From assembly GCA_903860985.1 (NCBI GenBank), contig CAIOSO010000039.1, positions 1-36,471 on the forward strand: a DNA stretch of 36,471 nt, read 5' to 3'. The notes below the pieces were generated by a model, which was not told the DNA's origin, searched no databases, and saw only the letters and a list, made by a program, of their open reading frames with translations. The DNA comes from an uncultured Flavobacteriales bacterium. Lineage in GTDB: Bacteria; Bacteroidota; Bacteroidia; Flavobacteriales_D; Crocinitomicaceae. Positions 1 to 650 of this stretch are shown piece after piece (positions within the stretch are counted from its first letter, which is position 1; each line of letters begins with the position of its first letter). The position numbers and the translations under genes are program-made.

Positions 1-1
1 A

Positions 2-649
2 CCAACAGAGGATTTAGTATGGAAAACCTTGGTAGATCTTCTCACCAATACCGAAGAATTGAAAAATTCATTAGACAAAGTACTCACCCAGAACCCCGAT
101 TTCTCAGTACTGGTGAGGAAACAACGACTTAGTTTGACCAGAAAAATTGAAGATCTTGAAAATAATCTGAAAAGGATAACTGAGGGTATTGTTGATTTAG
201 AGAAAAAGAGGATTCTGAATCAATTTCATACGGAAGATATCTACCATCAAATCAAGAAGAAATTAGATACAGAATACAAGGGAATACACCTAAAAATTGA
301 AGACAATAAAAACCTTTTATCCTTTCATTATCAGAAGGATAAGTGGTATAAATCAATGTTAGAAATTTGTAAGGTGTTCACGAAAAACAAGTCCTTTTCA
401 TTCCAACAGAAAAAGGATGTTCTAACCCATTTCATTCACTCCATTATATTGTCATACAACAGTTTGAAGAAGGTTCATGAACTAACCCTTTTTCTTAAAA
501 TACCATTGATTTTCGAGGGTGTAAAACGGACTATTTCCAAAAACGTCCCGAGGAAAAACCTTCTGAAACTATCGAAAACACTAACAGACCAACCAAATAC
601 CCGTTGGGACTACTCCACCGTCACCGACTTCGCCAAGTTTCTTGGTTGA
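2..649 (+). CDS. Large serine recombinase, C-terminal part (5' end beyond window)
   Basis: The frame is already open at base 2, so this is the 3' part of a longer gene; a TTG at 29 is not needed as a start. The first visible residues (TEDLVWKTLVDLL) resemble the segment that follows the recombinase/zinc-ribbon region of large serine recombinases, where 'LE-D/E-LVW' is typical. A charged helical region predicted as coiled coil follows (roughly 35-110 residues into the visible part), as in this family. The catalytic serine domain would lie left of the window. The last 13 codons (608-646) and the TGA (647-649) lie in sequence antisense to the glmS 3' end, giving the tail DYSTVTDFAKFLG. Two sampled 60-base lines here are 30-33% GC, against about 47% in a glmS line, which fits foreign DNA. 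The family call is inference from partial sequence; I see no catalytic motif. Confidence 0.7.
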   Translation, partial: PTEDLVWKTLVDLLTNTEELKNSLDKVLTQNPDFSVLVRKQRLSLTRKIEDLENNLKRITEGIVDLEKKRILNQFHTEDIYHQIKKKLDTEYKGIHLKIEDNKNLLSFHYQKDKWYKSMLEICKVFTKNKSFSFQQKKDVLTHFIHSIILSYNSLKKVHELTLFLKIPLIFEGVKRTISKNVPRKNLLKLSKTLTDQPNTRWDYSTVTDFAKFLG

Positions 650-650
650 T
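600..650. other. Putative element/chromosome junction (attachment site) in the glmS 3' end
   Basis: The AT-rich recombinase frame passes directly into the conserved codons for the glmS C-terminus (RNLAKSVTVE, stop at 610-612). GlmS keeps its canonical ending, so insertion at or just beyond the stop would leave the enzyme intact. The 3' end of glmS is a known safe insertion target (Tn7 recognises it through TnsD), but here the adjacent gene is a serine recombinase. The exact crossover cannot be fixed without the other element end or an empty-site relative. Confidence 0.5.

Follow-up and report, generated by a model that had tools for sequence, protein, structure and literature searches.

A probable large serine recombinase element seated in the last codons of glmS in Bacteroidota

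The window analysed here, a stretch of 36,471 bases that makes up the whole of contig C39 in a 191-contig MAG, very probably begins inside the glmS-proximal end (attR) of an element that was integrated site-specifically by its own large serine recombinase (LSR). In the proposed mechanism, the LSR would recognise an attB composed of the last glmS codons and flanking bases, attP would carry a copy of those glmS codons, and strand exchange would take place at the dinucleotide GT within the core TA(C/T)TCNAC(C/T)GT. Since the exchange would fall inside a shared core, integration would swap the last codons of glmS for an equivalent copy, leaving the GlmS protein unchanged. The 3′ end of the LSR gene contains the attP core, so that the LSR frame in the chromosomal state would run over the core and be closed by antisense glmS, whereas in a circular form it would lead instead toward ext, a small HTH gene at the far end. 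This reading draws on the window junction itself, on full homologous LSRs at the same site, on cores at both ends of the element in relatives, and on empty sites. The features of the junction are as follows.

2 to 649, + strand: the C-terminal 215 codons of the LSR gene, 5′ open at the contig end, with last codons (YSTV TDFAKFLG, stop) that are antisense glmS
578 to 609, + strand: the element-side att arm (P arm), ACACTAACAGACCAACCAAATACCCGTTGGGA, missing in relatives with an empty site
611 to 621, + strand: the att core, TACTCCACCGT, the reverse complement of the final glmS codons, with exchange placed at GT 620–621 by homology with relatives
622 to 649, + strand: the host half of the junction, i.e., the glmS sequence closing the LSR frame (TDFAKFLG, stop)
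610 to 2454, − strand: glmS, the target gene, 614 aa, with an intact ending and homologues in relatives

The LSR frame runs on the + strand from the contig edge (window position 2) to a TGA at 647–649, giving 215 aa, and overlaps glmS by 40 bp, its final codons, YSTVTDFAKFLG and the stop, being the GlmS ending read in antisense. The GlmS of the window, 614 aa long, ends normally in ..VDQPRNLAKSVTVE (..NLAKSVTVE), as an earlier note on this DNA had stated. The GC content of window positions 1–609 is 34.3%, vs. 42.8% for glmS and 40.4% overall, and a value as low is found in two of 718 sliding 609-nt windows, 1–609 itself counted. The fragment alone gives no significant Pfam match, but phrog_95, a phage integrase family, is matched at E = 2e-6. 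The C-terminal part of a 553-aa protein of the genome G061, in which Resolvase and Recombinase domains are recognised, shares 72% identity with the fragment, and the domain assignment of the window's LSR is by homology, as the window holds the C-terminal part alone. The partial, AT-rich LSR-like gene recognised by the earlier note is thus confirmed. Its claim that this gene ends exactly at the conserved glmS codons is right in that antisense glmS codons form the end, but the frame crosses the boundary and reaches its stop within 28 bases beyond the core, in glmS.

A match to the LSR frame was found in 12 of 299 genomes of the order, and in all 12 (11 relatives and the window) it lies at the glmS 3′ end, a position that is partly automatic for the four shortest matches (21–28 codons), in which up to 12 codons are glmS itself. 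Four of the matches reach at least 200 codons, namely those of the window, G260, G061 and G146, and the other eight are fragments or scars. The LSR of G260, a genome of the window's genus, is 85% identical to that of the window and is likewise cut by a contig end. The LSR of G061 is full (553 aa), as is that of G146 (558 aa), which is 27% identical over the window's part and 48% identical to G061 overall. Full-length LSRs of 553–558 aa are present at glmS in four other Bacteroidota MAGs. Resolvase and Recombinase domains were found in the full homologues tested (G061 and G628), so the serine catalytic domain that the earlier note had proposed to look for is present there; in G061 the domains occupy residues 8–267 of 553, all upstream of the core.

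A scan of a genome-contig collection with two short C-terminal patterns returned at least six loci. Three of these, L099, L100 and L101, were taken as the same records as G146, G061 and G260, and the new ones are L098 (G627) and L103 (G628) in Flavobacteriaceae MAGs and L102 in a Chitinophagaceae MAG, the last cut by a contig end; the LSR frame ends in antisense glmS in all three. The contig CAMDFX010000008.1 (L100) is titled Chryseobacterium gleum, whereas G061, which is the same contig, belongs to the window's family, apparently Crocinitomicaceae, and the title is likely a mislabel. When the G628 LSR was compared with 395 genomes of the phylum, three matched at E ≤ 1e-20, one of which, G982, lies at glmS. 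G389 has a more distantly related LSR (26%), which overlaps glmS as well but in a different frame. No member of the glmS LSR family turned up in two scans of viral contigs, and the matches in phage (608) and plasmid (135) records were all below 60% identity.

Since the window is the complete contig C39, its first base is an end of the assembly, with no sequence further left. The catalytic half of the LSR and the far element end are missing from this contig, and the element body would extend leftward from it. Searches of the window's MAG with the fragment, the Recombinase/Resolvase families and the ext alignment found neither the N-terminal half nor the far end, and Resolvase matches occur in two places, on C28 and C61, neither of which is joined to the glmS fragment. 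Tracing of the native neighbours (phhB, and the neighbour protein of close relatives, which had no match) gave no attL contig for the window. That the window shows one end only, its MAG having yielded neither the N-terminal half nor a far core nor ext, counts against the proposed model. The LSR on C28 (L001 913–2514) is a second one, of 533 aa, whose frame ends antisense inside a tRNA-Met gene.

This leads to an alternative that we regard as unlikely, namely that a past LSR insertion has become a truncated relic, its N-terminal half lost by decay rather than by an assembly break. Such relics are common at glmS, since 8 of the 12 matches in the order are shorter than 130 codons, some with stops, and the failure to find the N-terminal half or ext in the window's MAG would fit as well. 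However, the window frame is open across all 215 codons and is cut by the contig end, and its first 168 codons differ from those of G061 at 132 bases, of which 81 are at third positions, a strong bias as in a recently working gene. Furthermore, the contigs of G260, G212 and G146 break at similar places, pointing to assembly. A chimeric join of an unrelated recombinase contig to glmS is hardly credible, even though the MAG is fragmented and the junction is at one of its contig ends, given that MAGs of different families, each assembled independently, have the same in-frame junction (G260, G061, G146, L098, L102 and L103).

Empty sites were observed in close relatives. The LSR is absent beside glmS in four of four congeners of G061, in which glmS adjoins a peptidase gene that lies 4.7 kb off in G061, and a terminator-like hairpin occupies the gap between glmS and the peptidase gene in the two closest to G061 (G121 and G626). 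Within the window's genus, 27 other loci among the matches listed match the junction from window position 595 or later, mostly from 609–611. G336 represents the empty counterpart of G008, being approximately 89% identical to it on both flanks, between which G008 has 3.2 kb. The empty glmS-downstream site that the earlier note had suggested seeking in relatives is therefore found, and its proposal of a distinct mobile element agrees with the LSR domains, two-ended cores and empty sites, all seen in relatives. A native, non-mobile gene that simply adjoins glmS would account for the recurrence of the gene there in several families, but it has next to no probability given the empty sites of close relatives and the patchy distribution (12 of 299 genomes).

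Short remnants resembling the P arm were also seen. In another genus, L025 (6669–6704) and L026 (7633–7668) carry a short P-arm-like stretch at glmS, with no LSR match and with the same ordinary neighbour genes, which may be an old scar or a natural variant. The closely related G321 (L036 898–912) shares with the window just the final 15 bases of the P arm (AAATACCCGTTCAGA-like) at glmS, and the remainder differs.

The consensus core, TA(C/T)TC(A/C/T)AC(C/T)GT, equals the final glmS codons (T-V-E-stop) reversed. It is present at each end, in direct orientation, in G008 (3.2 kb), G627 (21 kb), G050 (1.8 kb) and G290 (5.9 kb): in G008, TTACTCCACCGTA stands at either end of the insert, and in G627 one core is at contig position 205,504 and the other at glmS. 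In G260 and G146, far ends with the core are located on other contigs, the far flank in G146 being another element. The second end and att half anticipated by the earlier note are thus represented by matching cores in G008, G627, G260 and G146, whereas the far end of the window's own element was not found.

The position of exchange was read from base differences between the two ends. On the left of GT, G627 has C in attL but T in both attR and the internal attP; on the right of GT, attL and attP have A and attR has G. The attL and attR of G260 differ from each other both in the variable core base and in the base following GT, in the manner that exchange at GT predicts. Because these polymorphisms sort around GT, the exchange falls there. 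One earlier core base of G627, which is C in the internal attP and T in attR, fails to sort if this attP is the exact parent, suggesting that the internal attP has mutated or is not the exact parent. Homology would place the window's exchange at 620–621, so that the glmS stop, GAG, GTG and one base of ACG would come from the element side. The att core is inside the LSR frame in the attR of all LSR copies read, as well as in the internal attP of G627 and G628. The element-side arm shows signs of constraint at the DNA level, as its last 10 codons before the core (194–203) are the same in the window and G061, compared with 132 differing bases in codons 1–168. Against this, and against the proposed model, 5 of those 30 bases differ between the window and G260.

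Bacterial transposons have their best-known safe harbour at the glmS 3′ end, which is used by Tn7 as well as by glmS-targeting CRISPR-associated transposons. Tn7, whose transposition proteins are TnsABCD, inserts downstream of the glmS stop codon and duplicates 5 bp of its target. These transposons and the present element have the glmS 3′ end in common, but the enzyme class differs, and the crossover of the LSR element lies in the last codons, which are re-supplied, whereas Tn7-type insertion is downstream. Instead of an insertion past the stop with a 5-bp duplication, we found a core of at least 11 bp with exchange inside the last glmS codons. The suggestion of the earlier note that the element picked the same safe site as Tn7 therefore holds for the gene but not for the exact point. 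A Tn7-like element carrying the LSR gene as cargo would share the target gene generally known for Tn7; this reading is extremely improbable, as the core and crossover lie inside the last codons rather than downstream of the stop and the LSR 3′ end is itself the boundary in the lineages seen.

At the far end, ext lies beyond the core, reads away from it and encodes approximately 95–104 aa as aligned. A search with the ext alignment gave matches in 15 of 399 genomes of the order, in 8 of which the match is in the same locus as glmS. In G069, G135, G173 and G652, ext abuts the glmS core, as if these elements sat the other way round. Similarity of ext to the Recombinase domain is weak and below the cut-off (E 0.0026–0.016), and a structural model of 97 residues (mean pLDDT 79.9) shows three helices and gave no significant match in the PDB, the best (E 0.97) being to Bxb1. 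The assignment of ext as a known directionality factor was therefore rejected, and any role that it may have in the element is putative. A model of the LSR itself was poor (mean pLDDT 53.4, 4 sequences) and was left unused. G050 and G290 possess two cores and ext, with no LSR found by tblastn, and these elements may have decayed, or they may be mobilised in trans.

Between the core and ext, the frame stays open in G008, G260, G290, G627 and G628. However, the spacer before the ext ATG differs between G008 and G260 by 2, 4 and 3 bases at the three codon positions over 33 codons, with no third-position bias, vs. 5, 2 and 13 over 43 codons of ext. In the LSR tail before the core, the window and G061 differ by 5, 5 and 7 bases in 25 codons, indicating that coding constraint is lost. 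Because the spacer and the LSR tail show little or no coding constraint, a functional LSR–ext fusion in the circle, or a C-terminal switch, was kept outside the best explanation.

The cargo of the 21-kb element of G627 (L107 11825 to L098 8466) includes a 1995-aa protein with its best score to DruE, a 950-aa protein with its best score to DrmD, a 467-aa protein that matches type II methyltransferases (ParB/methyltransferase-like) and a 1595-aa protein; these Druantia/DISARM-like genes make a possible defence island. On contig C24 of G146 (L134 3000–12395), a second element adjoins the glmS one. Its LSR, of approximately 30% identity, is split over two frames and is accompanied by a small resolvase, by genes resembling those for ParB and methyltransferases, and by ext at the core; this is tandem occupation of the glmS site. 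G061 has an 825-aa cargo frame (L017 14512–16989) with no Pfam or PADLOC match, the stop codon of which abuts an inverted LSR fragment.

The LSR start codon of G627, like that of G628, has an inverted copy of the last ~90 LSR codons directly upstream of it. This copy includes the P arm, core and P′ arm, i.e., an intact attP, and the G146 contig breaks inside the same inverted copy. The core inside the LSR frame, the far-end HTH gene and this inverted 3′ copy in three MAGs were not foreseen in the earlier note. The two arms within a genome are 98.0%, 100% and 98.5% identical in the three MAGs, the last value being over 137 bases. Between genomes, the right arms are 85.1% (G627/G628), 87.6% (G146/G628) and 96.4% (G146/G627) identical, values near those of the LSR bodies (86.0%, 88.1% and 94.8%, respectively). 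As the arms are alike within and divergent between genomes, they have been homogenised since G628 separated. Other repeats are present as well: in G627, ext and a small serine resolvase are repeated as a 1,340-base inverted pair (99% identical), and G061 has a 148-base inverted copy (82%) at the far end. An LSR piece in G246 begins at codon 463, one codon before the start (464) of the inverted copies in G627 and G628. G982, a genome of another class, has its LSR start directed away from glmS and an LSR C-terminal piece facing it.

These observations in G627, G628, G146 and G982, with the window outside their basis, lead us to propose, tentatively and as a possibility we rather doubt, that the LSR gene is an invertible cassette, in which flipping of its 1.39-kb core would switch the enzyme from ending in antisense glmS to reading through attP toward the HTH gene, or back. 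The integrase would then have two C-termini and two directions of transcription while chromosomal. However, the arm identity is also explained by gene conversion alone, the difference between genomes is also small for G146 and G627 (96.4% identity), both LSR orientations were seen in none of the genomes read, and coding constraint is small or absent in the spacer upstream of ext and in the tail that precedes the core.

Like elements of the phiC31, Bxb1, TP901-1 and A118 type, the glmS element has an LSR with Resolvase and Recombinase domains, and its LSR family gives weak but significant PDB matches to TP901-1, A118 and another integrase chain. It also resembles LSR elements and prophages in having a short core with exchange at a 2-bp position. 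Two differences from phiC31-type systems stand out. First, the target is the 3′ coding end of glmS and the att core falls within the LSR frame. Second, in G627 and G628 the LSR start is closely preceded by an intact attP in inverted orientation. An attachment site within the integrase gene, with integration altering the 3′ part of the gene, is described for archaeal SSV-type suicidal integrases, which are tyrosine recombinases split by integration, in the review PMC8371274. The glmS LSR likewise has its att site inside the integrase gene, but it is of the serine type and unsplit: exchange affects only the tail past the core, upstream of which both known domains remain.

Among 26 LSR loci that yielded a row out of 29 entered, eight overlap a tRNA gene, the frame ending antisense in it or running through it. 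The tRNA-seated LSRs of Bacteroidota, approximately 23–29% identical to the G061 LSR, likewise have frames that end antisense inside the target, which in their case is a tRNA gene. Running into the target is thus a recurrent LSR layout, and what is distinctive here is the glmS target, the re-supply of codons and the inverted attP copy. No description of an LSR element at glmS was found among the titles and abstracts returned from the open-licence PubMed Central literature. The main text of an LSR survey (PMC10083194) contains neither glmS nor tRNA, its target lists being in supplements where a prior listing is possible, and glmS was not found in PMC12884075 either. In the papers searched, glmS is new as a target of LSR integrative elements.

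A separate enzyme class that acts at glmS and re-supplies the codons it replaces represents a clean convergence on an essential gene. The family also offers predicted LSR/att pairs that would insert beside an essential gene in Bacteroidota with its product unchanged. If the LSR gene does invert, it would provide a new way of tying the form of an integrase to the state of its element.
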